Positions 5,786 to 61,424 of a stretch of DNA of 64,000 bases are shown here, piece by piece. The stretch covers positions 248,001-312,000 of the forward strand of contig NZ_VSJK01000002.1 in assembly GCF_008085915.1 (NCBI RefSeq). Direction: 5' to 3'. The notes under the pieces are model-generated. The model worked only from the letters and a program-made list of their open reading frames with translations, had not been told where the DNA came from and ran no database searches. Position numbers and translations under genes: made by a program. This stretch comes from Oceaniovalibus sp. ACAM 378 (GTDB lineage Bacteria; Pseudomonadota; Alphaproteobacteria; Rhodobacterales; Rhodobacteraceae). How positions within the stretch are numbered: position 1 is the stretch's first letter; each line of letters begins with the position of its first letter.

Positions 5786-6019
5786 GGCAGCGGTGCGTCG
5801 AATGGTGCCCGGTGCGTTCTGATGTGCGTCCCTAGACTATTGCGCAACCGGCAAGCGAAGTAGGGAAATCCCGTCGCCTTTTGGTTGATCATGGAACATG
5901 ACGGTGACATTGGCATTGGGTTTATACACATTGATGTAAAAATGGCGCTGAGGCGGGCTTGCGAGCCTTCGATTGTTGGTCATTGGCGCAGCCACTTATC
6001 GACGAGAAAGCATGGGTCC

Positions 6020-6415: not shown

Positions 6416-6500
6416 GCTTGGCCTGCGTAGCGCCGACAGGGGCGGTGATGGTCTCGGGCGGTAAAGCTCGACGACTTGCGATGGTTTGAACGGAGTTTTC

Positions 6501-8342: not shown

Positions 8343-8415
8343 CGCGCTCGCAGCCAGTCAACCGAGCCAGCGCCGATTGTTTTAGGCGGGCCCGCACGAC
8401 CGAGGGATCAGTCTG

Positions 8416-9393
8416 CTAACCGGCAATCTTGCGAAAGCTCGTCGGTCGCGGCTCTTGCTGCTTTTTCGACCTTCGGTTTTCCGCCCGGGCAATGGCACGG
8501 TCGAACGTCTTGCGGATCCGATGGGTCTTGCTCGCACTGGGTCGGATCGGATTGCCGATGGAGATTTCAATATCAAGCGGGTCGCCGTTATCGTACTCGA
8601 TATTCTTCTCGTCCAGCAGGTCCTGAATTTCCCTTTCCAACCCGATGGATGGCTCCAGCGTCGCCTTGTTCGAGACCAGCACAAATGCACCGTTTCCGGC
8701 ATAGGCCATCATGTAACCGCTGGGTCCAAAGACATCATGCACGGTGTCGGCAAACTCGGTAAGCGCATAGGTGAATTCGTCACGCGACGCCCGCGCGAAG
8801 ATCATGTCGATCCGATCAATCTTGATGGCAAGCACCTGAGAACAGACCAGCCCGGACCGCGACAGTTGCAGGATATAGTTGGCCAGCGCCGCGTATTCGA
8901 TCAGCTCTTTAAAGCCGACGATCTGGATTTCATCGGATATGTCGAATGTCTTTTCCGGTTCATCCGCCACCGGGACGTCATTCTTTGGCGCAGCCAGTGC
9001 TGCAAGTTCGCGTCGCGCGCTGACGACTTCTTGCGCCATCCGCAGACGGGCACCCAGCTCGATGATGTCGATCGGTTTGGTCGCGTAATCCGTGGCACCG
9101 GCTTGGAATGCGCTGTCGATATAAGTTTTTTCGGTCATCGCCGTCAGCATGATGATCGGGGTTTTGCGATAGGTCGGCATTGCGCGAATTTGTTCGCACA
9201 GCTCGATTCCATCCATTCCCGGCATATTGATGTCGAGCAGCAGACATTCGAAATCCTCGTCGGCACTGTTCATCATTTCCAGAGCGACGTCACCCGACAA
9301 TGCGGTTTCAACTTTGCTATATCCGATCCTCGCGCAGATCATCGTGAGAAGTTCGAGAATAAAGTAGTCGTCATCAACAGCGAGAATCTTCAT
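8416..9393 (-). CDS. Response regulator with degenerate GGDEF-like output domain
   Basis: 325 residues. The N-terminal receiver has acidic residues at 7-9, phosphoacceptor Asp54 in LLLDINMPGMDG, and Lys106 in KPID. A linker of about 35 residues precedes a domain (about 150-315) with GGDEF-like landmarks: AIKIDRID for the metal-binding strand and ISIGNPIRP plus RAIARAENR for the C-terminal helix. However, YAGNGAFVLV replaces the GGDEF loop, so diguanylate cyclase activity is unlikely. The same domain is found in the membrane-anchored regulator at 2044. ATG 9393 is preferred over GTG 9399 because GAGGTG lies just upstream. The gene converges on the histidine kinase gene. Confidence 0.87.
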   Translation of the reverse strand: MKILAVDDDYFILELLTMICARIGYSKVETALSGDVALEMMNSADEDFECLLLDINMPGMDGIELCEQIRAMPTYRKTPIIMLTAMTEKTYIDSAFQAGATDYATKPIDIIELGARLRMAQEVVSARRELAALAAPKNDVPVADEPEKTFDISDEIQIVGFKELIEYAALANYILQLSRSGLVCSQVLAIKIDRIDMIFARASRDEFTYALTEFADTVHDVFGPSGYMMAYAGNGAFVLVSNKATLEPSIGLEREIQDLLDEKNIEYDNGDPLDIEISIGNPIRPSASKTHRIRKTFDRAIARAENRRSKKQQEPRPTSFRKIAG

Positions 9394-44872: not shown

Positions 44873-45717
44873 AGCTTGGGATCAATCTTCTTTGTCTCGG
44901 CGGCCATATCGATGAATCGACGCTGCCGCATCTCGAGCGGATTGCCGAATGCGGCTATGATCATGTGGAAGTGCCAGTAATGCACGGCACGCCGGATCAT
45001 TTCGAATGGCTGGGCAAACGGCTTGCCGATCTGGGCCTTGGTCGCGCGCAAACTTCGATTATCCCCGACCCGGACGCAAACCCGCTTTCCGCCGATCCCG
45101 ACAACCGCAAACGGGGCCGGGCGCATCTGGACTGGATTCAGGATTGCGCCGAGGCGCTGGGGTCAGAAACCATCGGCGGACCGTTTCATGCGCCAATCGG
45201 GTATTTCACCGGTATCGGGCCGACAAATGACGAGATCGCTCGGGGTGCCGAGGCGCACCATGCCATGGCCGAGCGCGCGGCGCGCAACGGATATCGCCTT
45301 GCGCTGGAACCGCTGAACCGGTTCGAAACCTATTTCCTGAACACGATGGAGCAGGCCACCACCTACGCAAAGGCAGTGGATCACCCCGCTTTTGGCATCA
45401 TGTACGACACATTTCACGCCAATATCGAGGAACAGGATCAGGGCGCGGCGATTGCGGCGCTGGGCGACAAGATGCACGTGCTGCATATTTCCGAGAATGA
45501 CCGTGGCATTCCCGGGCGCGGTCAGATCGATTTTGCTGCCGTCTTTGCTGTCGTCAAGCAACAGGGTTTCGATGGTCCTGTCGTGCTGGAAGCCTTCGGC
45601 GCGGGCGTGCCGGAACTGGCTGCGGCCACGCGGGTCTGGCGGCCGCTGTTTCCCGATTTCGATACTTTGTTTACTGAATCCCACGATTTCATCCGCAACG
45701 CATGGGCCGCCGCATGA
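44869..45717 (+). CDS. D-tagatose/allulose 3-epimerase-like sugar epimerase
   Basis: 282 residues, the second xylose-isomerase-like barrel in the operon. ALEPLNRFETYFLNT corresponds to the Glu-containing signature of ketose 3-epimerases. Other metal ligands lie in GIMYDTFHANIEE (Asp, His), LHISENDRGIPG (His) and VVLEAFG (Glu). It would epimerise a ketose at C3 or act on hydroxypyruvate-type substrates; family calls vary. Translationally coupled at both ends: ATGA overlaps with the oxidoreductase gene and with the ABC ATPase gene. Confidence 0.88.
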   Translation: MKLGINLLCLGGHIDESTLPHLERIAECGYDHVEVPVMHGTPDHFEWLGKRLADLGLGRAQTSIIPDPDANPLSADPDNRKRGRAHLDWIQDCAEALGSETIGGPFHAPIGYFTGIGPTNDEIARGAEAHHAMAERAARNGYRLALEPLNRFETYFLNTMEQATTYAKAVDHPAFGIMYDTFHANIEEQDQGAAIAALGDKMHVLHISENDRGIPGRGQIDFAAVFAVVKQQGFDGPVVLEAFGAGVPELAAATRVWRPLFPDFDTLFTESHDFIRNAWAAA

Positions 45718-47225
45718 GCACTCCGGTCATCGAGATGCAGGCAATCACCAAGGTGTTTCCGGGCGTGAAGGCGCTGTCCGACGTCAGTTTTGACGTGCGC
45801 GCAGGCGAGGTGCAGGCGCTTGTCGGTGAAAACGGTGCCGGAAAATCGACGCTGATCAAAATCCTCTCGGGGGTCTATCAGGCGGATGGCGGCGAGGTGC
45901 GGTTGGCGGGTAAGCCGGTGCATTTCACCCATCCCGTGCAGTCACTGCTTGCCGGAATATCGGTGATCTATCAGGAGTTTTCGCTGCTGCCCGAACGGAC
46001 CGTTGCGCAGAACCTGTTTCTGGGCCGCGAACCGCGTGGGCGTTTCGGATTGATCGACGAGGCGGCAATGCGTCGTGAAACCCGCCGGGTGCTTGATCTT
46101 TTTTCGTCCGGTGCGCGGATCGATCCGGACAGATTGGTCGGCGAACTTGATGTTGCCACCCAGCAGATGGTCGAGATTGCCAAGGCGGTGTCGCTGGATG
46201 CGCAGGTGATCGTCATGGACGAACCGACCGCCGCCCTGAACGATACCGAATGTGCCGAGCTTTTCGAAACCGTGGACAGGCTGCGGGAACGCGGCGCTGC
46301 GATTATCTATATCACCCACCGGATGCGCGAAATTACCCGTCTGGCGGATCGCGTGACCGTTTTGAAAGACGGCGAAGTGGCCGCGCGGTTCGATCATGTT
46401 CCCGAACCGGACGCCATCGTGCGCGCCATGGTGGGGCGCGACATCGCCGATTTCTATGCGCGTGAGGCAACCGAGGCGGAACTGGGCGCGCCGGTGTTGA
46501 CCGTGACGGGCGGTGGAAATGCCCGACTGAAGGATATCGCCCTGACGGTCCGCGCCGGTGAAATCGTCGGGCTTGCGGGGATTCAGGGTGCAGGCCGCGT
46601 GGCCCTTGCCATGGCCCTGTTCGGCGAAGAGCCGTTTACCGAAGGCGAAGTGGTGCTTGACGGTAAACCCGCCCGTTTTCGCTCGGCGCGCGAGGCGATC
46701 ATCGCAGGCATCGGCCTGTTGCCCGGCGACCGCAAGAAGGAAGGGCTCGTTCTGATGCAGTCGGTGCGCGACAACGGCATGCTGACGCCGCGCGCCTTTG
46801 CGCCGCTTTGGGCCAGCCACAAGCGCAATGCGAATGCCGATCTCACACGGATCGACGATCTGCTGGATCGGATGGATATCCGCGCGGCCTCCTATGATCA
46901 GGAAATCCGCGGGCTTTCGGGCGGCAACCAGCAAAAGGCCATCGTCGCTCGCTGGCTGTCGATGAACCCCAAGCTGCTGATCTTTATCGAACCGACGCGG
47001 GGCATCGACGTGAATGCCAAGGCGGGGATCTATCACCTGATGCGCGATCTTGCCCGCGAAGGTGCGGGGATCTTGATGATTTCCTCCGACCTGCCCGAAG
47101 TGATTGGTGCCGCTGACCGTATCGTGGTGATGCAGGCGGGGCGGATCACCGCCGAATTCCCGCGCGGCGCGTCCGAGCGCGATATCATGCACGCCGCCAC
47201 CGACGACGCAAAGGACGCAGCATGA
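45714..47225 (+). CDS. Sugar ABC transporter ATP-binding protein (RbsA/MglA type)
   Basis: 503 residues with two fused nucleotide-binding domains, as in carbohydrate uptake transporter family 2. Domain 1: Walker A GENGAGKST, signature replaced by LDVATQQMVEIAKA, Walker B VIVMDEPTAAL. Domain 2: degenerate Walker A GIQGAGRVALA, intact signature LSGGNQQKAIVARWL, and FIEPTRGIDVNAK. This asymmetry is normal for RbsA-type proteins. It energises sugar import with the two downstream permeases. ATG 45714 overlaps the upstream stop. Confidence 0.96.
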   Translation: MSTPVIEMQAITKVFPGVKALSDVSFDVRAGEVQALVGENGAGKSTLIKILSGVYQADGGEVRLAGKPVHFTHPVQSLLAGISVIYQEFSLLPERTVAQNLFLGREPRGRFGLIDEAAMRRETRRVLDLFSSGARIDPDRLVGELDVATQQMVEIAKAVSLDAQVIVMDEPTAALNDTECAELFETVDRLRERGAAIIYITHRMREITRLADRVTVLKDGEVAARFDHVPEPDAIVRAMVGRDIADFYAREATEAELGAPVLTVTGGGNARLKDIALTVRAGEIVGLAGIQGAGRVALAMALFGEEPFTEGEVVLDGKPARFRSAREAIIAGIGLLPGDRKKEGLVLMQSVRDNGMLTPRAFAPLWASHKRNANADLTRIDDLLDRMDIRAASYDQEIRGLSGGNQQKAIVARWLSMNPKLLIFIEPTRGIDVNAKAGIYHLMRDLAREGAGILMISSDLPEVIGAADRIVVMQAGRITAEFPRGASERDIMHAATDDAKDAA

Positions 47226-48208
47226 GCGCGCCCGAGGGTATCCGCCCGGTCAAACCCGGGTTTCGTTTTGAAAAGTGGGCCCCCGTGATCCTGCTGGCCC
47301 TTGCATCGGTGCTCTACATCGCAATCGCGGTGGCGACGGACCAGACCCAGTATCTGTCGCTGGAAAACCTGATCGCGATTCTTGGCCGTTCCATCGCGCT
47401 GGGCATCACCGCCATCGGTCAGACATTCGTGATCCTTGTGGCCTCAATCGATCTGAGCGTCGCCAGCCTGATTTCGGCCACAGCGGTGCTTGCTTCGGTC
47501 GTGATGGATGGCTCACCGGCGATGATCCTTCCTGCCATCGTCGCCGCCCTTGTCCTTGGCGGATTTGTCGGAGTTCTTAACGGGCTGGTCGTGACCGGGC
47601 TGAAGGTCAATCCGCTGATCGCGACGCTGGGGATGAGCCTGATAATCCAGGGTTGCCTGTCGGCCTTTGTGTCGAATTTCGCGGGTTCGGTGCCGCCCGA
47701 GTTTCAGATCTTTGCCTACGGGCAAATCGCGGGGGTGCCGTTTGCGTTGGTGTTTCTGGTGCTGCTGGCCATTGCCGCCTGGGGGATGCTGCGGTTTACC
47801 AAACTCGGGTCCGATATCTATGCTGTCGGCGGCAACGAAGAAGCGGCGCGTTTTGCCGGGATCAAGACCGGGCGCGTCGTTGTTCTGGCCCATGTGATCT
47901 GTTCGCTCTGTGCCACGGTTGCCGGTCTGTACCTTGCCAGCCGGTTGCGGTCTGGCGCGCCCTGGATCGGGGCCGACGGGGTTTATGACCTTGAAAGCAT
48001 CGCGGTCGTCGTGATCGGCGGCACGGTTCTGGCTGGAGGGCGCGGCGGAGTCTGGGGCACGATGGCGGGTATGATGATCTTTTCGCTCATCGACTCGGTC
48101 TTCAACATTGCCGGGGTCGACAGTTTTGCCAAACAGGTCATGCGCGGGGTGATCATCATCGCGGCTGTCGCCTTTTATGCCCTTCGCTCAAAAAGGATCG
48201 TCGCATGA
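47222..48208 (+). CDS. Sugar ABC transporter permease (RbsC type) 1
   Basis: 328 residues, about 8-10 membrane helices. Signatures: VASIDLSVASLISATAV, LKVNPLIATLGMSLI, YAVGGNEEAARFAGIK and VIGGTVLAGGRGGVWGT, all typical of the BPD_transp_2 family. Overlaps the ATPase gene and the second permease gene by 4 bp each. Having two different RbsC-like permeases implies a heterodimeric membrane channel. Confidence 0.95.
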   Translation: MSAPEGIRPVKPGFRFEKWAPVILLALASVLYIAIAVATDQTQYLSLENLIAILGRSIALGITAIGQTFVILVASIDLSVASLISATAVLASVVMDGSPAMILPAIVAALVLGGFVGVLNGLVVTGLKVNPLIATLGMSLIIQGCLSAFVSNFAGSVPPEFQIFAYGQIAGVPFALVFLVLLAIAAWGMLRFTKLGSDIYAVGGNEEAARFAGIKTGRVVVLAHVICSLCATVAGLYLASRLRSGAPWIGADGVYDLESIAVVVIGGTVLAGGRGGVWGTMAGMMIFSLIDSVFNIAGVDSFAKQVMRGVIIIAAVAFYALRSKRIVA

Positions 48209-49203
48209 CCGGCAAGGCAACAACCCCGTCCGCAACGTCATCGGCGCGCCGGTCGCGCAAACCGTTTGACTTCAATCCCGTCTGGGGATTGCTGGCGGTG
48301 CTGATTGTCGGGATCGTTTTCATGAACCCGGGGTTCATCGAGCCGACGGGCTATATGAACTTCCTCAAACGCGCGGCACCTCTGGCGATTCTTGCGGCGG
48401 GTCAGGTCTTTGTGATCGTTTCGGGCGGGTTCGATCTGTCGGTCGGGTCGCTGATCAGCCTTGTGGTGGTCGGCGCGTCGATGCTGACCAACAATGATCC
48501 CGCGGCGACCTATTGGGTCATCCCGCTGATGCTGGCGATGGGGCTGGGCATTGGGGCGATCAATGGAATGGTCGTCTGCTTCCTGCGGGTGCCATCGCTG
48601 ATTGCCACCCTTGGCATGATGATCACGCTGAACGGTGTGGCCTTCATGTGGTCAGGTGGTGCGCCGCGCGGATACCTCCCCGATTCGTTCCGGTTTTTCG
48701 GGCGCGAGTTGATTCGTGATGTGCCGCTGGTGCGGTTTATTCCGATCTCGGTGATCGTGCTCGTGGTGATTGGTGGACTGCTTGCCTGGGCGATGCACCG
48801 GACCAATCTGGGCCGTCTTCTGCATGCCATCGGTGACAACCCTCTGGCCGCGCGACTGGGCGGCGTGCCGGTCAATCGTGTGCGGATCGCCGCTTTCATG
48901 ATCTCGGGGCTGTCGGCGGCTGTTGCGGGGATCTTGCTGGGTGGCTTTGCCGGTGTGTCGACCGATGTGGGCACCGGATACGAGTTGCAGGCGATCACCG
49001 CCGCCGTTCTGGGCGGTGCGCAGCTTTTGGGTGGGCGCGGCTCTGTGCCCGCTGCCATCGGTGGGGCGCTGGCGCTGACTGCCATCTTCACCCTTTTGAA
49101 CTTCCTCGGCCTGCCGCAACCCGTCCGGCAGGTGGTGCAAGGTCTTATCCTGATCGCAGCCGTCGCGCTTGCGATGCACCGAAGGACACGGACGGGAACC
49201 TGA
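48205..49203 (+). CDS. Sugar ABC transporter permease (RbsC type) 2
   Basis: 332 residues, homologous to the preceding permease: VSGGFDLSVGSLISLVVV, RVPSLIATLGMMITLNG, AIGDNPLAARLGGV and VLGGAQLLGGRGSVPA. The N-terminal 25 residues are Ser/Arg-rich and cytosolic. It should pair with permease 1. The binding-protein gene follows after 50 bp with its own strong ribosome-binding site. Confidence 0.95.
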   Translation: MTGKATTPSATSSARRSRKPFDFNPVWGLLAVLIVGIVFMNPGFIEPTGYMNFLKRAAPLAILAAGQVFVIVSGGFDLSVGSLISLVVVGASMLTNNDPAATYWVIPLMLAMGLGIGAINGMVVCFLRVPSLIATLGMMITLNGVAFMWSGGAPRGYLPDSFRFFGRELIRDVPLVRFIPISVIVLVVIGGLLAWAMHRTNLGRLLHAIGDNPLAARLGGVPVNRVRIAAFMISGLSAAVAGILLGGFAGVSTDVGTGYELQAITAAVLGGAQLLGGRGSVPAAIGGALALTAIFTLLNFLGLPQPVRQVVQGLILIAAVALAMHRRTRTGT

Positions 49204-49253
49204 CAGGCGCCAGGAGCAAGCGCCCATGAACACACCCCAAAGGGAGGAAACCC

Positions 49254-50381
49254 ATGAAACAGGTCATCTTGACGACCACGGCTGCAACCGCGCTGGCGCT
49301 TTGCCTGAGCCCGGTGAATGCCCAGAATTTCAACGATCCGGATGAGTTTGCCAAACAGCAAGAGCAACTGTCCGCCCCACCCAACGGTCCCGAAGGCCAG
49401 CCCTGGCTGCAGTATATCGGCGACAGCATGACCACAGCCCCCGGTCTGGGCGGCGGAGAGCCGGCGACCGTCTGCTTTTCCAACGCAGCGGTAAACAACC
49501 CCTGGCGCGTGGTCGGCTTTACCAACATGACCGAAGAGGCAAAGCTGCACGACTCCATCGGCGAATTCATCCACGTGGATGCCGAAGGGTCGGACGACAA
49601 GCAGATCGCCGACATCAATGACCTGATCGCGGGCGGCAAATGCGATGTGATGATCGTATCGCCCAACACGACCGCAGCTTTGACGCCCGCCGTTGAAAAG
49701 GCTTGCGCCGCGATGCCGGTCATTGTGTTTGACCGTGGCGTGAATACGGATTGCCCGGTGACTTTCGTGCATCCGGTCGGCGGTTATGGTTTTGGCATTC
49801 AGGGCGCCGAGTTCATCAAAGGCAATGTGGACGAAGGTTCCAACGTGCTGATGCTCCGCATCTTGCCGGGTGTCGACGTGCTGGAAACCCGCTATTCCGC
49901 CGGACGTCGCATTCTTGACGAAGCCGGAATGAATGTCGTCGGGGTCGAATTCACCGATGGTGACAATGCCAAGACCAAATCCATCGTCGAAGACTATCTC
50001 ATGCGCGGCAAGATCGATGCCGTCTGGATGGATGCCGGCGCCACCGCCGTTGCCGCGATCGAGGCCTTCGAGGATTCGGGTTTTGAAATCCCCGTATTCG
50101 TCGGCGAAGATCAGCAGGATTTCCTGCGCAAGTGGCAGGACGAAGGCATGACGGCCATCGCGCCGACCTATCCGACCTATCAGTGGCGCACGGCTGTGAT
50201 CGCCGCCGCGCGGGTCATCGAAGGTGGCGAAGTCCCGGCGCCCGAGTGGGTTCTGCCGCAACCGGCAATCACTCAGGACACTCTGGCAGAATTCGCGAAT
50301 CCGGCCATGCCGCCGCTGCACTATTCCATGTGTGGCTGCGAAAGCATGGACAACTACCCCCAGGCATGGGGCGCAAAGTAA
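49254..50381 (+). CDS. Sugar ABC transporter substrate-binding protein
   Basis: 375 residues with a signal peptide (cleavage about residue 23, PVNAQ). Periplasmic-binding-protein type 1 fold of the RbsB class: VVGFTNMTEE, DIIN-type stretch IADINDLIAGGKCDVMIVSP, and VFDRGVNTDCPVTFV. Several cysteines (in VEKACAAM, TDCPV, SMCGCES) could form disulfides in the periplasm. AGGGAGGAA precedes the ATG, consistent with higher expression than the permeases. The bound sugar cannot be deduced. Confidence 0.94.
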   Translation: MKQVILTTTAATALALCLSPVNAQNFNDPDEFAKQQEQLSAPPNGPEGQPWLQYIGDSMTTAPGLGGGEPATVCFSNAAVNNPWRVVGFTNMTEEAKLHDSIGEFIHVDAEGSDDKQIADINDLIAGGKCDVMIVSPNTTAALTPAVEKACAAMPVIVFDRGVNTDCPVTFVHPVGGYGFGIQGAEFIKGNVDEGSNVLMLRILPGVDVLETRYSAGRRILDEAGMNVVGVEFTDGDNAKTKSIVEDYLMRGKIDAVWMDAGATAVAAIEAFEDSGFEIPVFVGEDQQDFLRKWQDEGMTAIAPTYPTYQWRTAVIAAARVIEGGEVPAPEWVLPQPAITQDTLAEFANPAMPPLHYSMCGCESMDNYPQAWGAK

Positions 50382-51489: not shown

Positions 51490-53223
51490 ATGACCCCCGA
51501 ACGTTCTCCGGGCGGTCTCGTTTACCTTCTGGGGCCGCTGCGGGTGCAGACGGCCGATGGGCGCGATTGCACGCCTGCCGGAGTGTTGCGCAAGGCGCTG
51601 TTTGCGGTTCTGGCCCTGTCCGAGCGCGGCAGCCGGTCACGGGTGACTCTGCAGGATATGTTCTGGGGCGCGCACCCGGGTGCACGCGCCGCCGGTTCGT
51701 TGCGGACGGCTTTGTCGACACTGAAATCCGAACTGGCGCCACTGGGCGATGACATCCTGCGGATTGATCCGCAATCGGTCAGCCTGAACTGCGCGGCTTT
51801 GTGGATTGACACGGTTGCCTATCGCAATCAAGAGGTCCCGTTGCCGGGATCAGGGCGGATGCCCGACCTGCTGGAAGGGATCGATCTGGGGGGCGCCGAT
51901 CGCGAAGTCTTCGAAGACTGGCTGCGTGTGGAGCGCAGCGCATGGGATGATTTCGTCGATCAGGCCGAAACCGTACCCGTCCGCCCAAAGCTGCCGGCCG
52001 AGGTTACGAAACATCACGTCATCACACCGGATCAAGAGCCCCGGGTGCAGGTAAAACTGCCAGAGGCGCGGATTGGACTGGGGTTGCTGATGGTGGTCGG
52101 TGACGGGATCACCCCAAATCTGGAACAGCAATGCGACGACGTGCTGGATGCCATCGGCGCCAGCGCCCGAGAGTTGTGCGGCGCCGACATCTATGACTAT
52201 CGCGACGGTATCCGCCATGGTTTTACCGATCCGGCCGGGCGGGGGGCCGCGCATCTGTTGCAGCTTCATGTCCGCACGCAGGGTGAAAGCGTCCGATTGA
52301 CCCTGAAAGTGATCGAGACCGCGACCCGGCGCTCGCTTTGGGATCAACGGGTCGTCTGTGACAGCGCCGAAATGGTTGAGGTGCACGAGCCGAAGGTGGC
52401 TGAATTCATCAGCCGGGCCATCGAACAACTGGCGGTCAGCATCCTGCCCAACGCCGACCTGTCGCGCAGCGCTCTGCACGCGCCCTATCAATCGCTGAAC
52501 ATGATGTTCACCCTGTCACCGGATGCGCTGGAGCGGGCCGGGCTGTTGTTGCAGTCGGCCTGGGACGAAACCGGTGATCCGGTGCATCTGGGCCTGCTGT
52601 GTTATCTTGAGACCTTCCATGTGGGCGAAAGCTGGGGCCATGCCGTCGCGCGCAGTGCCGATGTGACCGCGCTGACCCGGGAAGGTCTGAATGCCGGAGC
52701 GTTCAACGGATTGTTTCTGACGACGGCGGGCTATGCGCTGTTTTATCTCACGGACGAAAACGAACTGGCGGGCGATCTGCTGACCCGTGCGGTCGAAGTC
52801 GCACCGGCACAGGCGTTGGCCTGGGATCATCTGGCGCTGTTCCAGAACGCGCGGGGCAATCACGCCGCTGCCCGTCTTGCCGCCGGGCGGGCGATGGCGC
52901 TGGGTCGGTTCAGCCCGCTGCGCTATGCCTATGACACCACATTGTCGATGGTGGCCCATGCCGAGGGCGATCTGGACGCCGCCGTGCAATATGGCCGCCG
53001 TGCGCTGGCGCGAAAGCCAGAGTTTTCGGCCGCGCTGCGCTATGTGACCGCCGGGCTGGGTCTGATGGGGCGGCGGGCCGAGGCTGAACAGATGGCACAG
53101 CGTATTCTGCGGCTGGACCCGGACTTTACCACCCTTCGCAGTACTCAGGGATTGCTGAAACTGGCGAATGCCGGTGTGCCCGAAGAATTGCGAAAGGGTT
53201 TGATAATGGCCGGATTGCCGTAA
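51490..53223 (+). CDS. SARP-like transcriptional regulator with TPR-type C-terminus
   Basis: 577 residues. The first 105 residues look like the winged-helix DNA-binding domain of SARP/OmpR-type activators: VYLLGPLRVQTADG, GVLRKALFAVLALSERG, and AAGSLRTALSTLKSEL for the recognition helix. A central domain (about 180-310) resembles the alpha/beta domain found in CadC- or adenylate-cyclase-type regulators. The C-terminal 250 residues are helical and TPR-like (AWDHLALFQNARGNHAAARLA; DLDAAVQYGRRALARKP). The start is uncertain: ATG 51490 sits right before the DNA-binding domain, and GTG 51472 or 51283 are alternatives. The PAP2/haloperoxidase gene follows 29 bp downstream, so it may be autoregulated and control that gene. 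Confidence 0.75.
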   Translation: MTPERSPGGLVYLLGPLRVQTADGRDCTPAGVLRKALFAVLALSERGSRSRVTLQDMFWGAHPGARAAGSLRTALSTLKSELAPLGDDILRIDPQSVSLNCAALWIDTVAYRNQEVPLPGSGRMPDLLEGIDLGGADREVFEDWLRVERSAWDDFVDQAETVPVRPKLPAEVTKHHVITPDQEPRVQVKLPEARIGLGLLMVVGDGITPNLEQQCDDVLDAIGASARELCGADIYDYRDGIRHGFTDPAGRGAAHLLQLHVRTQGESVRLTLKVIETATRRSLWDQRVVCDSAEMVEVHEPKVAEFISRAIEQLAVSILPNADLSRSALHAPYQSLNMMFTLSPDALERAGLLLQSAWDETGDPVHLGLLCYLETFHVGESWGHAVARSADVTALTREGLNAGAFNGLFLTTAGYALFYLTDENELAGDLLTRAVEVAPAQALAWDHLALFQNARGNHAAARLAAGRAMALGRFSPLRYAYDTTLSMVAHAEGDLDAAVQYGRRALARKPEFSAALRYVTAGLGLMGRRAEAEQMAQRILRLDPDFTTLRSTQGLLKLANAGVPEELRKGLIMAGLP

Positions 53224-53252
53224 GGTAAGACCACAATGGAAACGGGGAGTGA

Positions 53253-54242
53253 ATGACCATGACCGAAACCAGAGATTTTGACCTTTCGATCCTGCAACGC
53301 TGGAGGTTGCGGGTTCGGGCCGACACAATCACGCTGGATTCGGTTCCGGCCATGGCCGATGCGCCAATCGGGCAAATGGGGGCGACGCAACCCGGCGCTG
53401 CACAGATGACCGCCTCGCAATTGGCCCTGTCACGCAGCGCGGCGGCATCGCCCCTGTCGTTCATGGGAGTGCTGAACCGCGGCAACCGTGGAAATCGGGG
53501 CAACCGTGGCAACAGAGGGAATCGTGGGAATCGTGGGAACCGGGGCAACAGGGGCAATCGCGGCAACCGGGGAAGCAGCGATTCATTGGATGCCGCGTTC
53601 TACAGCATGCTTGCCCCCTGGCAGGAGCGTGAAAAGCTGCACGATCTGCGCCCGCTCTGGATCGACTTGCCGCTGGCCCCACCGCCGTCGCGCGCCGAAC
53701 TCCGCACTGAAATTCCACATATGTTCAAACTTCAGGCCGCGCTGAAAACCGAGGCCGAGGCGGGCCGCCGCGACGAAATCCTGACCGAGCGTGATCTTGA
53801 ACTGTCGTCCTATCTTGCCCCCTTGGGGATCAACGGCGACACCGGGTTTCACCAGACCATGCGCCTGTTCGTGTTGGTTGCGGGCCTGTGTGAAGAAATC
53901 GGGTTGCGCTACAAGGATCGGTGGCACGCGATCCGGCCCAACATGCTGGAGCCGTCGCTGCGTCCGTTCATCCCGAACCCCGCGCATCCGTCCTATCCTT
54001 CGAACCATGCGTTCCAATCGATGGCCATCGCGCAGATCTTCGCCCGCGCGGTGCCCGAACACCCGGGCAACCCCGAACTGTTCCGTCGCGCAATGCGGAT
54101 CGCGCACAACCGCGAATGGGCCGGAATACATTTTCCGTCCGATACCCGTGCGGGGTTCGATCTGGCGCGGCTGTTCCTGCCGGTGCTGGAACAGGTGGTT
54201 GCAGAACAGATGATCCGAACCAGCGAAGAATGGCGCGACTGA
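53253..54242 (+). CDS. PAP2/vanadium-haloperoxidase superfamily protein with Asn-Arg-Gly repeats
   Basis: 329 residues, no signal peptide or clear membrane helix. Residues 75-107 are eleven perfect NRG tripeptides. The C-terminal half carries the acid phosphatase/haloperoxidase triad of motifs: Lys221 with Arg228-Pro229 (KDRWHAIRP), PSNH at 249-252 (Gly of the usual PSGH replaced by Asn), and Arg287, His293 and Asp297 (REWAGIHFPSD). These residues bind phosphate or vanadate. The soluble form, helical lead-in and PSNH fit vanadium-dependent haloperoxidase relatives, but phosphatase activity is equally possible. ATG 53259 is an alternative start nearer optimal spacing from GGGGAG. Next gene 14 bp downstream. 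Confidence 0.82.
   Translation: MTMTETRDFDLSILQRWRLRVRADTITLDSVPAMADAPIGQMGATQPGAAQMTASQLALSRSAAASPLSFMGVLNRGNRGNRGNRGNRGNRGNRGNRGNRGNRGNRGSSDSLDAAFYSMLAPWQEREKLHDLRPLWIDLPLAPPPSRAELRTEIPHMFKLQAALKTEAEAGRRDEILTERDLELSSYLAPLGINGDTGFHQTMRLFVLVAGLCEEIGLRYKDRWHAIRPNMLEPSLRPFIPNPAHPSYPSNHAFQSMAIAQIFARAVPEHPGNPELFRRAMRIAHNREWAGIHFPSDTRAGFDLARLFLPVLEQVVAEQMIRTSEEWRD
53475..53573 (+). repeat. Eleven tandem 9-bp units encoding Asn-Arg-Gly
   Basis: 99 bp of in-frame 9-bp units, each Asn-Arg-Gly with no amino-acid deviation. Codons vary: Asn uses AAC and AAT; Arg uses CGC, CGT, CGG, AGA and AGG; Gly uses GGC, GGA and GGG. Synonymous drift with an invariant peptide suggests selection on the protein and not a fresh slippage expansion. 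Confidence 0.95.
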
Positions 54243-54256
54243 AAGAGGGCACAGAT

Positions 54257-55750
54257 ATGACAAGCACAACCGGGAATTCCGCAGGGAGCGAGCCGCGCCA
54301 CGGCGGCAGCTATCCCGAGTATCACGCGCTCTGGCATCTTGAGAGGTTGGGCGTCGTCACCGATCTTCACCGATTTGCCAGTCCCGATGCCTGGAATGCG
54401 GTTCAAAGCGGCGGGCGCAAGACCCGGGTGGCGCTGATCGACACGTCGGTCGACTGGACCCACCCCTGTCTTGCCCCCGCGATCGACCGGGCGCGGATGA
54501 TCGATCTCGCGGCGCGCGATTTCGGCGTTTTCACTGTGCCACAAGACGATTTGACCGGGGCTGAGGCTCCGGCGCGGGCCGAAGTGATCGCCGCGGCCGC
54601 CGCCGGGGCGGGGCAGGGCGATGCCCTGCGCGACCGGTTCCTACGCGATCTGGGGCGGGCGCATGAGACACAGGACGGTTACCGCGCGGCGGCGTCCAGC
54701 GCGTTTTCGGGTCATGGCACTTCGATGGCCGGGCTGATCGGCGCGCGTCCGGTTGATAACGTCTGGCTGCACCGTCCAGCGCGCCTGTCGCCCGATCCAC
54801 GCGAGGCGGGTGAAACCGGTGCCGCGCTGCCCTATGCCGGGATCGATCCGTTCTGCGAGATTGTGCCGATTTCGACATCCGCCCTGCCGTTCCCGGACCA
54901 AATGTGCGCCGCGCTGATCTATGCTGATCTGATCGGCGCGGATGTGATTGCGTTCGCCGCCTCGATTCCCGACCCGACTTTGGCCGGGGTGGCCATGGTC
55001 GACGCCGAGCCGCCAGCCACTGGCAAGGTGCCGGCCGGCCAGACTGCCATGGGGGACGAGGCGTTGCCGTCCGATCCGGACTTGCTGACGCGCTGGACCG
55101 AACTGAAGGCGCTGATCCTTGATGTGTCCCAGCGTCGGCTGATCCTTTGTGCGGCAGGCAATGCGGCGGATGGGATGCTGTCCTATCCGGCCAATCTGGC
55201 AGCGGACGACAATGGTATCGTTGCCGTGGGTGCCTGTACTTCGGATGGGAGGCGCGCCGGATATTCCGCTGGCGGGGACAGCCATCATCCGGTGACGTTG
55301 TTCGCGCTGTCGGGGGACGGGCCGGTGGCCGATCGCGATCTTTACCGGCTGGACCCGTTCGCGGAGCTGCCCGGCACCGATGCGCGCCGGCTGTTTGACC
55401 GGGCAGGCGCACAGATGATGGCCGTCGAAACCCTGATCTCGACAGATGTGGCGGGGCGTCCGGGGTATTCCACCTCGCCCTATGCAAAGGTCTGGCGCGA
55501 CACGCCGGGGCCGGATGGCGCGCCGGTGGCCTATGAGTTCACCAGCTTCTTTTGCGAATTCTCGGGCACCTCGGCGGCAACCGCTGTGGCGACGGGCCTG
55601 ATCGCGTTAGGGTTTTCTACCGGGCGATTAACTCGCGCGACTGCGCCGTCGGAAATCAAGGCCGCGCTGGTCGGCGGGCGGGATTACGACGGGGAAAAGG
55701 GCGAACCGGCGCTGACATGGCGCAACATGGGCGCTGATTCGGGCGGCTGA
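54257..55750 (+). CDS. S8-family subtilisin-like serine protease
   Basis: 497 residues. Complete catalytic set: Asp62 (ALIDTSVDW), His153 (SGHGTSMAGL), oxyanion Asn302 (CAAGNAADG) and Ser439 (FSGTSAATAVATG). There is no signal peptide and no obvious I9 propeptide, so it is probably cytosolic. An insertion of about 90 residues separates the Asp and His motifs. Start ATG 54257 follows GAAAGAGGG; the open frame extends upstream inside the PAP2 gene. With 14 bp to that gene, co-translation is likely. Cytosolic S8 proteases of this size occur in RiPP maturation and in regulated-cleavage systems; the substrate is unknown, and a repeat-bearing neighbour is an obvious candidate. Confidence 0.9.
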   Translation: MTSTTGNSAGSEPRHGGSYPEYHALWHLERLGVVTDLHRFASPDAWNAVQSGGRKTRVALIDTSVDWTHPCLAPAIDRARMIDLAARDFGVFTVPQDDLTGAEAPARAEVIAAAAAGAGQGDALRDRFLRDLGRAHETQDGYRAAASSAFSGHGTSMAGLIGARPVDNVWLHRPARLSPDPREAGETGAALPYAGIDPFCEIVPISTSALPFPDQMCAALIYADLIGADVIAFAASIPDPTLAGVAMVDAEPPATGKVPAGQTAMGDEALPSDPDLLTRWTELKALILDVSQRRLILCAAGNAADGMLSYPANLAADDNGIVAVGACTSDGRRAGYSAGGDSHHPVTLFALSGDGPVADRDLYRLDPFAELPGTDARRLFDRAGAQMMAVETLISTDVAGRPGYSTSPYAKVWRDTPGPDGAPVAYEFTSFFCEFSGTSAATAVATGLIALGFSTGRLTRATAPSEIKAALVGGRDYDGEKGEPALTWRNMGADSGG

Positions 55751-55886
55751 CCACAACCCATGGGGCCTTGTGGGTTTGCTGCAACGCCCCGGGTTTCCAG
55801 CCGCAACCGGTGCCTGAATAATAGGCGGAAAGATGCTCGTCTGCTAAGTTGCTATCAATAATAAACGATTGGCAGGTTTGAGCAGG

Positions 55887-56981
55887 ATGGCGGGCTTTGT
55901 AGGCACGTTCGTCGTTTCCTGGTCGCAAACAGAGATAGACGGTTTGGCGGGGGCACCGATTTCGGCCCTCGATGTCGGTGTCACTTGGCGCTGGCAGGGG
56001 TCACCCGTGCGGGTAGACGGTCCGAATGACGTTCTTGTTCTGAACGGCCCGGAAGGCGAAGCGGAAATGCGCAAACGCGCAGCGCGGACGGTGCGCCGTC
56101 TGGTTGGCCCGGCTCTGGCGCCGCAGCACAGCCATGATGTGGATCGCGACGAACCGATGTTCGACCGGTTCTTCATTGTCACCGACGGGCGCGATTCCTA
56201 TCCGATCACGTTGATCGATCTGGCTGAAACCGCGCGCCCCTTGCTGCTGTTTCTTGGGCGGATGCCGCCCTCCAACTGCGATCTGTGGGTCACCCAATGT
56301 CTGGAGAACAGTGACGGCGTGAACCGCAGCACCGAGCAGCCGACCGGTGTGATCTGTTTCACCGAAGGCACGCTGTTGCGTACCCCCAAGGGGAACCGGG
56401 CGGTCGAAACGCTCATCCCCGGCGATATGATCGATACCCGGGATGGCGGTGTCCAGCCGGTGCAGTGGGTAGGCCACAGACATCTGTCGGGGGCGCGGAT
56501 GTTCGCATTGCCCGAACTGCGCCCGATCCGGATCCGTACCGATGCGCTTGGGTTGCACCGTCCGTCACCCGACCTGATCGTTTCGCCCCGCCACCGGATT
56601 CTTGTGCGTGGCGACATGGCGCAGGCGCTGTTCAACACCTCCGAGGTGCTGGTGACCGCCGCGGATATGGTGAACGACCGGACCATCGCCCAGGTTCACG
56701 GCGTGCGCAGGGTGACCTATTATCACATCATGCTGGCCGCACATCACGTGGTCTGGGCCAACGGTGTGGCCACCGAAAGCTTTCACCCCGGCCACACCAG
56801 TCTTGAAACGATCCCCGGCGATCAGCGCGACGGGCTTTTTGCCGCCGACCCAAGGCTGCGCGACGATCCGCAGGCCTTCGGCGATCCGGCGCGGCGGATG
56901 CTGACCACATCCGAGGCGGCGATCCTGATGCATGAGGCGCGCGGTCGTTCGCGACAGCTCCATCGGACGATCGGCGGCTGA
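55887..56981 (+). CDS. Hint-domain (Hedgehog/intein-type) protein
   Basis: 364 residues. The N-terminal 150 residues are an unfamiliar domain. A Hint_2-type domain starts at Cys157 in [16 protein letters not shown], continues with ALIPGD-like [22 protein letters not shown] and ends near [17 protein letters not shown]. Such domains share the fold of self-splicing inteins and Hedgehog, with the first Cys as nucleophile; in Rhodobacterales they are frequent but their activity is mostly untested. ATG 55887 (GAGCAGG directly before) was chosen; TTG 55869 is an alternative. It lies 136 bp after the S8 protease gene on the same strand, so operon membership is possible but less certain. Confidence 0.85.
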
Positions 56982-57890: not shown

Positions 57891-57932
57891 ATAACTTTGC
57901 CACTAGCGTTTGGACAACAAGGAGGAAACACC

Positions 57933-58907
57933 ATGCAAATCAACACTACATTCTTGTCCGGCGCCGCGATCGGCCTTGCGCTGTTCCTTGCCGCGCCCGC
58001 CCTTGCGCAGGATTGCGAACGCGGCACGCTTGACGAACGGTTCTGCGATGTCGACGGTGATCTGATTGCAGACGTGCCCACCGATCCGGCACAACTGCTC
58101 GACCCCGACACATTGATTTTTGCCTATACGCCAGTTGAAGATCCCGCCGTTTACAAGACGGCATGGGAGGATTTCCTGACCCACCTTGAAACCGAAACCG
58201 GCAAGAAGATCGTGTTTTTCCCGGTGCAGAACAACGCCGCCCAGATCGAGGCGATGCGTTCCGGTCGCCTGCACATTGCCGGCTTCAACACCGGTTCAAA
58301 CCCGCTGGCCGTAAACTGTGCCGGCTTCCGTCCGTTCACCATCATGGCCGCCGAAGACGGCGCCTTCGGCTATGAGATGGAGATCATCACCTACCCCGGG
58401 TCGGGCATCGAAAAGATGGAAGACATCAAGGGCAAGAAGCTTGCCTTTACCGCCCCCACCTCGAACTCGGGGTTCAAGGCACCCAGTGCCATCCTCAAGG
58501 CGGACTATGATCTGGAGGCCGACCGGGACTTTGAACCGGTATTTTCGGGCAAGCACGACAATTCGATCCTTGGCGTGGCGAACAAGGATTATCCGGCGGC
58601 CGCCATCGCCAATACCGTCCTGACCCGGATGATCGGCCGCGACGTGGTCAAGGCCGATCAGATCGTATCACTGTACAAATCCGAGACCTTTCCGACCACG
58701 GGATACGGTGTCGTGTACAACCTCGCGCCCGAATTGCAGGACAAGATCCGCAACGCGTTCTTTTCATTCGAATGGGCAGGCTCGACCCTGGAAGAAGAGT
58801 TCGGCAAGGGCGGCGAGGCCAAGTTCATCGAAATCAACTATAAGGATTTCTGGAACGTGATCCGCAAGATCGATGCGGCCAATGATGTCAGCTATTCCTG
58901 CGGATAA
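57933..58907 (+). CDS. phnD: Phosphonate/phosphite ABC transporter substrate-binding protein
   Basis: 324 residues with a signal peptide (cleavage after APALAQ, residue about 25). PhnD-type fold: [19 protein letters not shown], a substrate-loop region [17 protein letters not shown], and the [13 protein letters not shown] stretch that contacts the phosphonate group in family members. Cysteines in QDCERG and RFCDVDG near the mature N-terminus and VNCAG/YSCG may pair. AAGGAGG precedes the ATG. A Pho box lies upstream, and phnC, phnE, phnE follow. Confidence 0.92.
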
Positions 58908-58984
58908 GCGGGCTGTGCGGTGGCCCTGCGGGGCCTCCGCGCCATTTTGACATGCACGAAAACACACCCGGCCAAGGGGGCTCC

Positions 58985-59773
58985 ATGCTGCGGCTTGAAA
59001 AGCTGGTGAAAACCTACAAGACCGGTGATCAGGCGTTGAAATCGGTGGATCTGGAGATCCCCGAAGGTCAGGTTCTGGCGCTGATCGGGCCTTCGGGCGC
59101 GGGCAAATCCACCCTGATCCGGTGCATCAACCGTCTGGTGGAACCGACCTCGGGCAAGATTTATCTCGGCGGAACCGAACTGACCACTCTGTCCCAAGGC
59201 GCATTGCGACGCGAGCGGCGGCGGATGGGGATGATCTTTCAGGAATATGCGCTGGTCGAACGTCTGACGGTGATGGAAAATGTTCTGTCCGGGCGGTTGG
59301 GCTATGTCGGGTTCTGGCGCAGCTTCCTGCGCCGTTTTCCGCAATCTGACGTGGACGAGGCGTTTCGACTGCTCGACCGTGTCGGGTTGGCCCATATGGC
59401 TGACAAACGCGCCGACGAACTTTCGGGTGGGCAACGCCAAAGGGTGGGAATCTGCCGGGCGCTGATTCAGAATCCGGCGCTGTTGCTGGTCGACGAGCCG
59501 ACGGCATCGCTTGACCCCAAGACCAGCCGGCAGATCATGCGGCTGATCTGCGAGTTGTGCCGCGAACGCGGACTTGCGGCGATCATCAACATTCATGACG
59601 TGGCGCTGGCGCAGATGTTCGTTCAGCGGGTGATCGGACTGCGATTGGGTGCCGTCGAATTCGACGGCCCGCCTGACGCCCTGACACCCGATGTTCTGAC
59701 CACGATCTATGGCGAAGAGGACTGGGAAGCCACCATCGCCAAGGTCGAGGACGACGAGGACGAGGCCGCCTGA
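58985..59773 (+). CDS. phnC: Phosphonate/phosphite ABC transporter ATP-binding protein
   Basis: 262 residues. Walker [11 protein letters not shown]-loop [12 protein letters not shown], signature [15 protein letters not shown], Walker [13 protein letters not shown], switch His in NIHDVALA. PhnC-type specifics include [15 protein letters not shown]-terminal acidic tail (VEDDEDEAA) is unusual but short. ATG 58985 was chosen because AAGGGGG precedes it; an upstream ATG at 58952 has no ribosome-binding site. The stop overlaps the first permease start by 1 bp. Confidence 0.94.
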
Positions 59774-60609
59774 TGAGCAATCCGACCTCCCCCAGCCCCG
59801 ACACAGAACTGGCCACACTGCTGGGCAAACCCTGGCGCAAACCGCCGTTCATTAAACGTGCGGGCCTGCGCTGGATGCTGATCCTCGGTTTCGCCGCCTA
59901 TCTGATCGCGGCGGTCCTGACGATCGAGGTCAACTGGTCGCGGGTCTATGACGGGCTTGAACGGGGCAAGCAGTTCGTGCTGGCCTTCGCCAGCCCGGAT
60001 TTCACCACCCGGTCCAGCGATATCTGGGGAGGGATGCTGGAAAGCATCATCATGACCGTGGTCGCCTCGGTCGTTGGCATTGCGATTTCGATTCCCATCG
60101 CGCTCGGTGCGGCACGCAACATTGCGCCGCTGCCGGTCTATGTGACTTGTCGGGCGATCATCGCGATCAGTCGGTCGCTGCAGGAAATCATCGTCGCGAT
60201 CCTGCTGGTTGCGATCTTTGGTTTCGGACCGCTGGCCGGGTTCCTGACCCTGTCCTTTGCGACCATCGGTTTCCTGAGCAAACTTCTGGCCGAAGACATC
60301 GAAAGCATGGACAAGGTTCAATCCGAAGCGGTCCGCGCCAGCGGCGCGCGCTGGTTGCAATGGATCAACTATGGCGTGCAGCCGCAGGTGATGCCCCGGC
60401 TGATCGGGTTGGCGATATATCGTATCGACATCAATTTTCGCGAAAGTGCAATTCTGGGTCTGGTTGGGGCGGGCGGCATCGGCGCCACCCTGAACACCGC
60501 CTTTGACCGGTATGAATACGATACCGCGGCCGCGATCCTGCTGATCATCATCGTGATCGTGATGGCGATGGAATATCTGTCGGGCGTGATCCGCGCGAGG
60601 GTCCAGTAA
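59773..60609 (+). CDS. phnE: Phosphonate/phosphite ABC transporter permease 1
   Basis: 278 residues, about six membrane helices. The inner-membrane EAA loop reads SEAVRASGARWLQWINYGV, with the ATPase-contact Gly, and AILGLVGAGGIGATL follows as in PhnE. The N-terminus (about 30 residues) is cytosolic and Pro/Lys-rich. Overlaps phnC and the second permease by single bases (TGATG and TAATG), giving tight coupling. No C-P lyase genes follow within the window, so the imported compound may be a phosphonate, phosphite or phosphate. Confidence 0.93.
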   Translation: MSNPTSPSPDTELATLLGKPWRKPPFIKRAGLRWMLILGFAAYLIAAVLTIEVNWSRVYDGLERGKQFVLAFASPDFTTRSSDIWGGMLESIIMTVVASVVGIAISIPIALGAARNIAPLPVYVTCRAIIAISRSLQEIIVAILLVAIFGFGPLAGFLTLSFATIGFLSKLLAEDIESMDKVQSEAVRASGARWLQWINYGVQPQVMPRLIGLAIYRIDINFRESAILGLVGAGGIGATLNTAFDRYEYDTAAAILLIIIVIVMAMEYLSGVIRARVQ

Positions 60610-61424
60610 TGCCGGTGTCCGAACGCGAAGGTCAGACACTGTGGAAGCGGCGCAGTGGTCGGGAAAGCCTGTTCCACTGGATCCTGTGGCTGATCGGAAT
60701 CACCATCTTTGCCCTGTGCTGGCAACGGATTTCGGCGGTCACCACATGGTATTTCGTTTGGGACGCACCAACCATCGCGGGCGATATCTGGTCGCGCGCC
60801 ACACCGCCCAAATGGGAGTATATCACCCAACTGGGCCGCCCGATCTGGGACACGCTGAACATCGCGACTCTGGGCACGATCATCGCGCTGATATTGGCAA
60901 TTCCGGTGGCATTTCTGGCCGCGCGCAACACCACGCCTTCGGTCCTTCTGATCCGGCCGATCGCGCTGCTGATCATCGTCGCAACCCGGTCGATCAATGC
61001 TCTGATCTGGGCGCTGTTGCTGATCGCGATCATTGGGCCGGGCGTGTTTGCCGGGGTGGTGGCCATCGCGATCCGGTCGATCGGGTTCTGCGCCAAGCTG
61101 TTGTATGAGGCGATCGAGGAGATCGACGAATCCCAGGTCGAGGCGATTACCGCCACCGGCGCGTCCCGGTGGCAGGTCATGGCTTACGGCATCGTGCCGC
61201 AGATTCTGCCCGCTCTTGCCGGGATCGCCGTGTTCCGCTGGGATATCAACATCCGCGAATCGACGGTTCTGGGGCTGGTTGGCGCCGGGGGGATCGGATT
61301 GCAGCTTTCTTCGTCGCTGAACGTGCTGGCGTGGCCGCAGGTGTCGCTGATCCTGCTGGTGATTCTGGCGGCGGTGGTGATCTCGGAATGGGTGTCGGCC
61401 AAGGTGCGTGGCGCGATCATCTGA
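60609..61424 (+). CDS. phnE: Phosphonate/phosphite ABC transporter permease 2
   Basis: 271 residues, paralogous to the preceding permease. The EAA loop is VEAITATGASRWQVMAYGI and the terminal signature TVLGLVGAGGIGLQL. The two would form a heterodimeric channel in the inner membrane, as in other phnCDEE operons. Confidence 0.93.
   Translation: MPVSEREGQTLWKRRSGRESLFHWILWLIGITIFALCWQRISAVTTWYFVWDAPTIAGDIWSRATPPKWEYITQLGRPIWDTLNIATLGTIIALILAIPVAFLAARNTTPSVLLIRPIALLIIVATRSINALIWALLLIAIIGPGVFAGVVAIAIRSIGFCAKLLYEAIEEIDESQVEAITATGASRWQVMAYGIVPQILPALAGIAVFRWDINIRESTVLGLVGAGGIGLQLSSSLNVLAWPQVSLILLVILAAVVISEWVSAKVRGAII

Follow-up and report, generated by a model that had tools for sequence, protein, structure and literature searches.

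A regulator, a repeat-bearing PAP2-fold enzyme and a protease make up a conserved and apparently undescribed three-gene cassette in bacteria

Class A non-specific acid phosphatases, such as those of Pseudomonas aeruginosa (7f17 and 7f18), PhoC and PhoN, have the fold and active-site motifs of the PAP2 enzyme described here and are its best matches in both sequence and structure. Compared with them, however, the cassette enzyme adds an N-terminal tandem repeat, a conserved partner protease and a regulator. Vanadium haloperoxidases (3w36, 4cit and 1qi9) share their active-site architecture and residues with PAP2 phosphatases; they are remote fold matches of our enzyme, they match a second group of PAP2 proteins in sequence and our enzyme more weakly, and their solved proteins are larger. 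We know of no repeat or cassette for these haloperoxidases. Intracellular and RiPP-maturation subtilisins (PatA/PatG, NisP, EpiP) are closest to the cassette S8 protease by sequence and structure and share its fold and triad, but the cassette protease of type S8-A adjoins a repeat-bearing PAP2 gene (25 of 27 genomes) and has no precursor peptide gene. SARP-family regulators (BagI/FevR) bear a weak N-terminal likeness to the cassette regulator, which unlike them has no Pfam BTAD or Trans_reg_C match and is partnered by the other two genes. The RRNPP systems of Firmicutes, e.g. PlcR-PapR and Rap-Phr, couple TPR regulators to peptides and resemble the cassette in that a regulator with TPRs has a protease and a possible source of peptides as its neighbours; however, no separate secreted pro-peptide was seen in the cassette, whose candidate peptide would be part of the enzyme.

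The window, i.e. the whole analysed stretch of 64,000 nucleotides from Oceaniovalibus sp. ACAM 378, was noted to hold, at positions 51,490 to 56,981, four same-strand genes with gaps of 29 bp and 14 bp between the first three, and the coordinates bear this out, with all four on the plus strand. The first gene of the cassette (51490..53223, +) encodes a SARP-like regulator of 577 aa with a C-terminal TPR region, the second (53253..54242, +) the repeat-bearing enzyme of 329 aa with PAP2 or class A acid phosphatase fold, and the third (54257..55750, +) an S8 subtilisin-type protease of 497 aa. After another 136 bp comes the gene of a 364-aa protein (55887..56981, +) that matches Pfam Hint_2 at 7e-55 and lies outside the cassette. 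Reading the sequences revealed no apparent signal peptide in the window proteins, the PAP2 enzyme included, in which it differs from class A acid phosphatases. None of the four proteins matched a PADLOC model at E≤1, and the reading as a known anti-phage defence system was rejected. The window regulator matches mainly TPR models in Pfam, all below their cut-offs, and has a weak NCBIfam match to BagI_FevR (E 0.029). The “SARP” label is due to this match and to the public names of homologues, which are “SARP family transcriptional regulator” in six records and “hypothetical protein” in two. At E≤1, the window regulator matches neither Pfam BTAD nor Trans_reg_C, and two Rhizobium homologues match neither of them at E≤0.1.

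Among 390 sampled Rhodobacterales genomes, 27 encode an S8 relative, and in 25 of these (the window genome counted) it adjoins a close PAP2 relative. Of 80 database loci, 79 have the protease after the PAP2 gene and 77 have the regulator before it; moreover, a regulator homologue was present in all 29 other stretches L062–L090. Of the 390 genomes, 167 encode a PAP2 relative at E≤1e-3, although some of these may be PAP2 proteins of another sort; each of the 20 weaker matches inspected carries the regulator. The reciprocal search from the regulator, whose profile also matches cyclase/TPR proteins, gave 20 stretches, of which 13 had no PAP2 gene and seven had one; these seven all possess a tandem repeat and a protease. 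Thus, PAP2 and S8 homologues are usually linked over many genera rather than scattered, and the joint system of the original prediction stands for the regulator, the PAP2 enzyme and the protease. It does not stand for the Hint protein, which we rejected as a member since its gene was found, among loci L062–L188, only in L062, L131 and L133, with L062 and L133 seemingly the same contig, judging by length. The trio represents a conserved cassette, apparently without description: no published account of the set was found in the open-licence literature (titles and abstract starts, mostly strict word combinations). It occurs in many genera of marine and soil bacteria and looks common in Rhodobacterales, and its presence in the well-studied Rhizobium johnstonii 3841 makes the system open to direct testing.

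The PAP2 protein matches Pfam PAP2 (2.8e-7) over residues 208–315 (53874..54197, +), with the motifs K-X6-RP, PSNH and R-X5-H-X3-D. The catalytic positions are invariant in an alignment of 60 sequences including the window and also across alignments A1, A2 and A4, where the third letter of PSxH is N, G or A. The AlphaFold model (mean pLDDT 81) has its closest structural matches among acid phosphatases (E 1e-8, TMt about 0.7), and vanadium enzymes are clearly weaker (E 7e-4 or worse); by sequence, acid phosphatases come first for the window group and vanadium enzymes are absent at E≤0.01. The predicted fold is closer to acid phosphatases than to haloperoxidases, and the earlier haloperoxidase reading is not favoured.

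The eleven NRG copies that had been noticed in this protein are exact and cover residues 75–107 (53475..53573, +). The tract far exceeds chance, as the top score was 5 in 3,100 shuffled N-termini and a tract was called at a score of at least 9. Its codons are scrambled. Its model confidence is low, and we read it as probably disordered. The coding pattern of NRGNRGNRG had no second match in the genome assembly of the window, and no second NRG protein of the same genome was found as a binding partner. Nearly all PAP2 proteins of the cassette carry such an N-terminal repeat, mostly 5–17 identical units of 2–4 residues, and the unit itself varies freely, with 39 distinct ones. NR and NK, both without Gly, are the commonest. 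In a count of 155 loci, made after those with identical PAP2 ends were dropped, the repeat is present in 120 of the 127 with a regulator found and in two of the 28 without, both on cut contigs. The 28 consist of 25 PAP2 genes of another kind (≤1,500 bases on each side) together with L107, L109 and L154. In L142 and L185, the regulator is present and the tracts are no better than shuffles. L223, removed as a duplicate of control L210, matches the regulator profile at 4e-14 and bears no tract; we read this match as another protein, the neighbour being AraC-like by eye.

In protein, the repeats are near-perfect, with only 8 of 1,244 units imperfect, although the tracts were picked for their repetitiveness. 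In DNA, adjacent copies differ at 790 nucleotides when one tract is taken for each of the 39 units, more than the 686 expected when the copy order is permuted (sd 15, maximum 745 of 5,000) or the 618 expected with codons sampled from the tract's own gene (sd 21, maximum 695 of 2,000). A protein repeat kept near-perfect over DNA copies that diverge beyond chance places the selection at the protein level. Known principles do not easily account for a near-perfect repeat whose letters may change between lineages while its DNA is prevented from becoming repetitive. Two simple roles were rejected. PF01391 scored 25.8 bits against the window PAP2, below its cut-off of 27.2, and Gly-X-Y is not family-wide, many units having no Gly, so a collagen-like function does not hold. 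Likewise, polycation binding fails as a general role because units may be acidic, neutral or hydrophobic.

As to the third gene, the S8 protein of the window matches Pfam Peptidase_S8 (1e-18), and its triad, which had been predicted to be intact, is complete: Asp62, His153 and Ser439 are present together with the oxyanion Asn302, and all four are invariant in an alignment of 40 sequences including the window. Over the loci, four protease lineages occupy this slot, namely two S8 types (S8-A and S8-B), papain C1 (3 loci) and glutamic A4/G1 (5 loci). Asp/His/Asn/Ser is found in 31 of 31 aligned S8-B proteins, 34 having been found and L185, L300 and L306 left out of the alignment. A protease match lies within the stretch in 115 of the 120 loci that combine repeat and regulator (81 S8-A, 26 S8-B, 5 A4/G1 and 3 C1), a count that includes L269, which has the ARD unit and whose sole S8 match is weak (8e-7) and located beyond the regulator. 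L135 and L180, which have no protease, are stretches that reach contig ends. In L087 and L088, the S8 domain is naturally fused into the same protein as PAP2. That unrelated protease classes fill one slot suggests that what is conserved is proteolysis as such. At matched PAP2 distance, a changed unit was not clearly accompanied by faster divergence of the protease, which was larger in two distance bins and slightly smaller in the third, and no clear co-divergence of the unit with the regulator emerged either.

Taken together, we tentatively propose, with a probability of roughly 0.4, that the cassette is self-contained and that the tract is a handle cut by the partner protease. The protease would recognise and cut the disordered N-terminal tract, its presumed substrate, and this cleavage may alter the activity or location of the enzyme, so that the putative phosphatase would be freed, relocated or switched; the regulator would govern the PAP2 and protease genes. 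The earlier suggestion that the protease might trim the repeat-bearing protein fits this evidence. Several observations count against this model, among them the unclear relation between unit change and protease divergence, the displaced weak S8 match of L269, the shuffle-like tracts of L142 and L185 and cassette genes on opposite strands. The NR unit is constant over many genera, the high copy number is unaccounted for by a switch for which a single cleavage site would suffice, and L184, with the same ARD unit as L269, has a tract and no protease found. The cassette may reveal either a new form of proteolytic control over an enzyme or a new system for producing peptides.

The latter possibility, in which the tract is a multi-copy precursor carried on the enzyme and the protease frees many short, identical peptides, modified in some lineages, much as in RiPPs or multi-copy pheromone precursors, seems unlikely to us, although many identical copies and a hypervariable unit within a conserved protein do resemble a core peptide. 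The RiPP-maturation proteases PatG, NisP, PagA and EpiP hold ranks 1, 2, 4 and 6 among the structural matches of the window S8 model, but ordinary subtilisins score nearly as high. In Rhizobium/Neorhizobium loci, where the tract is (Asn-Lys)n, genes for an aKG-HExxH peptide beta-hydroxylase and an E1-like ThiF protein come after the trio, and related HEXXH enzymes are described as hydroxylating consecutive Gln residues (PMC12636437). However, BLAST over the loci found the HExxH gene only in L162, L167 and L168, all with NK tracts, and the match in L266, also an NK locus, is below the cut-off. Furthermore, no chemistry is shared by units such as GVS, GGF, NR and AQ, the unit stays the same over many genera where pheromones change fast, and neither a RiPP precursor (leader plus core) nor a modification enzyme was recognised in the window cassette. 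An extended version, in which an interchangeable protease cuts lineage-specific peptides from the phosphatase, the TPR region of the regulator reads them, and the unit drifts as sender, cutter and reader co-evolve, is quite unlikely; if true, Gram-negative bacteria would possess regulatory cassettes of a new, peptide-based class.

It is also doubtful that the tract has a purely physical role, with simple sequence of any unit serving as a shield or stop for an unfolding protease or as a multivalent self-assembly segment. This agrees with the low model confidence and with units that are basic, acidic, neutral, aromatic or glycine-rich, but swaps should then be tolerated, against the rarity of imperfect units even in tracts picked as repetitive, and such a role does not account for a dedicated protease whose class changes. 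Very unlikely is a haloperoxidase system, in which PAP2 as a vanadium enzyme matured by the protease halogenates or oxidises a target. The shared active-site residues speak for it, as do animal-type haem peroxidase genes near seven loci and the second PAP2 group, whose profile matches vanadium bromoperoxidase 1qi9 (7.5e-11) besides acid phosphatase 7f17 (2.3e-21); the sequence and structure rankings of the window group given above speak against it. Finally, functionless microsatellites arising by replication slippage can hardly be credited. Copy number does vary (7–8 in eight Rhizobium-type loci and 6–16 in NR loci), but the similarity of adjacent DNA copies falls short of what a random order or the codon usage would predict, which contradicts slippage, Ser codons AGY and TCN are mixed within 8 of the 11 Ser-containing tracts, and 26 of the 28 PAP2 loci without a regulator found are tract-less.

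With regard to the surroundings, one weak phage record was present among the matches, and six viral contigs with distant PAP2 genes had no regulator or protease match in the stretches examined; a phage origin was rejected on these grounds. The next downstream genes, scanned where they lie on the same strand (44 genes, with 47 on the opposite strand left out), share no common family and no exporter, which also counts against peptide production. A single operon is not universal, as some S8-B genes and regulators lie on the opposite strand. Clustering of the upstream genes gave, outside the trio, clusters of at most 16 loci.

Four plus-strand genes lie in the window as the original prediction placed them, and ORF coordinates and Pfam agree: a regulator at 51490-53223 (an ORF), a PAP2-domain protein at 53253-54242 (Pfam PAP2 above cut-off), an S8 protease at 54257-55750 (Peptidase_S8 above cut-off) and a Hint-domain protein at 55887-56981 (Hint_2 above cut-off). 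The tract of 11 NRG units in the PAP2 protein is indeed present, error-free, at residues 75-107. The main Pfam matches of the regulator are TPR models under their cut-offs, so the name "SARP-like" rests on a weak NCBIfam similarity to a SARP-type model and on six public records in which a homologue carries the SARP name; two other records read "hypothetical protein". Defence-system models gave no match for the four proteins. By eye, the Hint gene is followed by what we take to be a ribosomal-protein-S4-like gene, and the ORF list has genes of a sugar-type ABC transporter upstream (45702-50381; ATPase, two permeases, binding protein) and of a phosphonate-type one downstream (57897-61424; binding protein, ATPase, two permeases). 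A link of the latter to the phosphatase is speculative.

The first three genes stay together as a system, as had been proposed. Among 390 genomes drawn from the order Rhodobacterales, 27 contain S8 relatives, and a close PAP2 relative adjoins in 25 of them, the window's own genome counted; the remaining two (G160, G341) are weak matches. Regulator homologues are present in all 29 of the stretches L062-L090, which were chosen around PAP2 matches. We also scanned the PAP2-core alignment against one genome per species (84,980 species) and obtained 221 relatives. Among the best 80 of these 221, which overlap partly with the 390-genome sample, an S8 gene follows in 79, the exception being a contig end, and a regulator precedes in 77. 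Two of the other three are contig starts, and the third, L154 (Aminobacter sp. AP02, 5629-6576), has no regulator match, a degenerate or imperfect tract and no K-X6-RP match, and is apparently a decaying cassette. Judging by record titles, the loci come from many genera of Rhodobacterales, from Aminobacter, Mesorhizobium, Rhizobium, Phyllobacterium and Microvirga, and from a few others. The Hint gene, predicted to be a fourth member, drops out, being present among L062-L188 in L062, L131 and L133 only. No family unites the 44 same-strand genes that come next downstream, the two most frequent families appearing twice each. Upstream, certain genes are shared by as many as 16 loci.

Nearly every cassette PAP2 protein carries a tandem repeat, and its unit differs between members. 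Units of the close PAP2 group are NR, NRG, NRD, NK, SK, SR, TK, GR, AR, AQ, AM and LHKG/LHKS. A second PAP2 group, first seen as weaker matches in the 390-genome PAP2 search, also lies beside the regulator in all 20 weaker matches examined (L089, L090, L171-L188), with units at the protein start including GVS, NHQ, NNS, QSL, HAE, NAQ, GPQ, VQG, GKM, GAS, GGF, NSF and QTQ. Searching reciprocally from the regulator gave 20 stretches, 7 of which contain PAP2 genes, each with repeat and protease, and added NSQ, TGW, GGGA and NGR; the 13 stretches without a PAP2 gene are mostly weaker or cyclase/TPR-type matches. In total, 155 distinct PAP2 loci were scored, and repeats scoring at least 9 were found in 120 of 127 loci with the regulator in the stretch examined versus 2 of 28 without it there, both of the latter being cut contigs. 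Five of the seven lower-scoring regulator loci have short or mixed tracts (for example LHKS/LHKG, AMAMAMAM, HGQHGQHGQ) above 5, the maximum in shuffled N-termini. The tracts of L142 and L185 score 3; in L185 (5810-8621) the tract is just HAKHAK and matches to the distant S8-B type are split over several reading frames, perhaps because the cassette is decaying or the sequence is faulty. Tracts scoring at least 9 comprise 39 distinct units. On a FastTree tree of PAP2 cores, the 47 unit labels require at least 49 changes, versus at least 99 in 100 label shuffles; thus units are stable within clades yet often changed.

At the protein level the tracts are nearly perfect, with 8 imperfect units in 1,244 across 122 tracts, counted from first to last perfect unit in tracts picked for repetitiveness, which favours perfection. 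Their codons are scrambled. With one tract per unit (39 units, longest available), neighbouring copies show 790 nucleotide differences versus 686 (sd 15, maximum 745 of 5,000) under permuted copy order and 618 (sd 21, maximum 695 of 2,000) when codons are taken from elsewhere in the gene. Of 344 neighbour comparisons, 11 are identical, versus 22.6 (minimum 8) and 40.2 (minimum 20), respectively. The direction is the same in 108 tracts, a larger set whose members are less independent. Most simply, the protein tract is under purifying selection, and DNA forms unable to slip have survived. Recent slippage as the source of the repeats predicts the opposite of this divergence and is very unlikely.

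The third gene is proteolytic, and its family varies among four types, tracking the PAP2 clade: the window-type S8-A, S8-B, papain-type C1 and the glutamic peptidase A4/G1. S8-B passes the Pfam S8 cut-off in L090 and L176 and falls just below it in L261; all 31 aligned sequences contain Asp, His, Asn and Ser, and gene orientation varies in this group. C1 enzymes were found in L089 (Pfam above cut-off), L174 (slightly below) and L171 (by similarity), with Cys and His identified by visual inspection of the alignment. A4/G1 enzymes were found in five loci, L253-L256 and L265, three of them through Pfam and two through profile matches. In L087 and L088, PAP2 and S8 form a single Pfam-confirmed protein with, by eye, a Tat-like start. 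Overall, 115 of the 120 loci with repeat and regulator have a protease match within the stretch examined, a count that does not require adjacency; none was found in the stretch examined for L184, and in L269 a weak S8 match lies beyond the regulator on the far side. By sequence the window S8 is nearest to intracellular subtilisins. Its model is subtilisin-like in general, with the RiPP-maturation proteases PatG, NisP, PagA and EpiP among the top ranks by small margins.

In the AlphaFold model of the window PAP2 protein (mean pLDDT 81), the helical core is predicted with confidence and the tract is not. Acid phosphatases are the nearest structural matches, followed by vanadium enzymes at E 7e-4 or worse, and sequence search agrees on acid phosphatases; the second PAP2 group matches both by sequence. 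PAP2 catalytic residues are invariant in the alignments, which indicates that catalysis matters.

We tentatively propose, with a probability of about 0.42, a protease-substrate cassette, in which the tract would be a handle recognised by the neighbouring protease and cleavage would change the state or location of the phosphatase. The proposal would account for the interchangeability of protease classes, for units that vary while matching their own protease, and for the retained active sites of both enzymes. It gives no reason for the high copy number of units. In a comparison at matched PAP2 distance, protease divergence accompanying a change of unit was larger in two distance bins and slightly smaller in the third. 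Copy number would be accounted for if the tract were instead a source of peptides released by the protease, which we consider unlikely. This alternative is favoured by genes for a peptide beta-hydroxylase (NCBIfam name aKG-HExxH-type peptide beta-hydroxylase) and an E1-like protein that stand behind the trio in Rhizobium-type loci, but they were seen in that lineage only. Enzymes of the aKG-HExxH type are reported to hydroxylate consecutive Gln residues (PMC12636437).

The genes of the trio all fall into known superfamilies and are named one by one in public records. In an open-access library we found no report of the gene combination, of a near-perfect repeat free in its unit, or of protease replacement in the third position.

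Several further genes were seen near cassettes. Some NR-type cassettes (L066, 13065-16475, and related loci) are preceded by three kinds of gene: one for another S8 protease of a different kind, in 16 loci; one read by eye as a LuxR-like regulator, in 13; and one for a small protein that contains Cys and is acidic, then basic, in 9. Seven loci whose cassettes differ in repeat unit (L063, L125, L128, L169, L084, L081, L175) have animal-type haem peroxidase genes nearby, and the first three of these also have a further C1-type peptidase gene. The PAP2 gene of L199 (Rhizobium johnstonii 3841 pRL12, about 7554-8585) seems to be annotated with too late a start (7773), and an in-frame upstream start would supply the usual N-terminal part.
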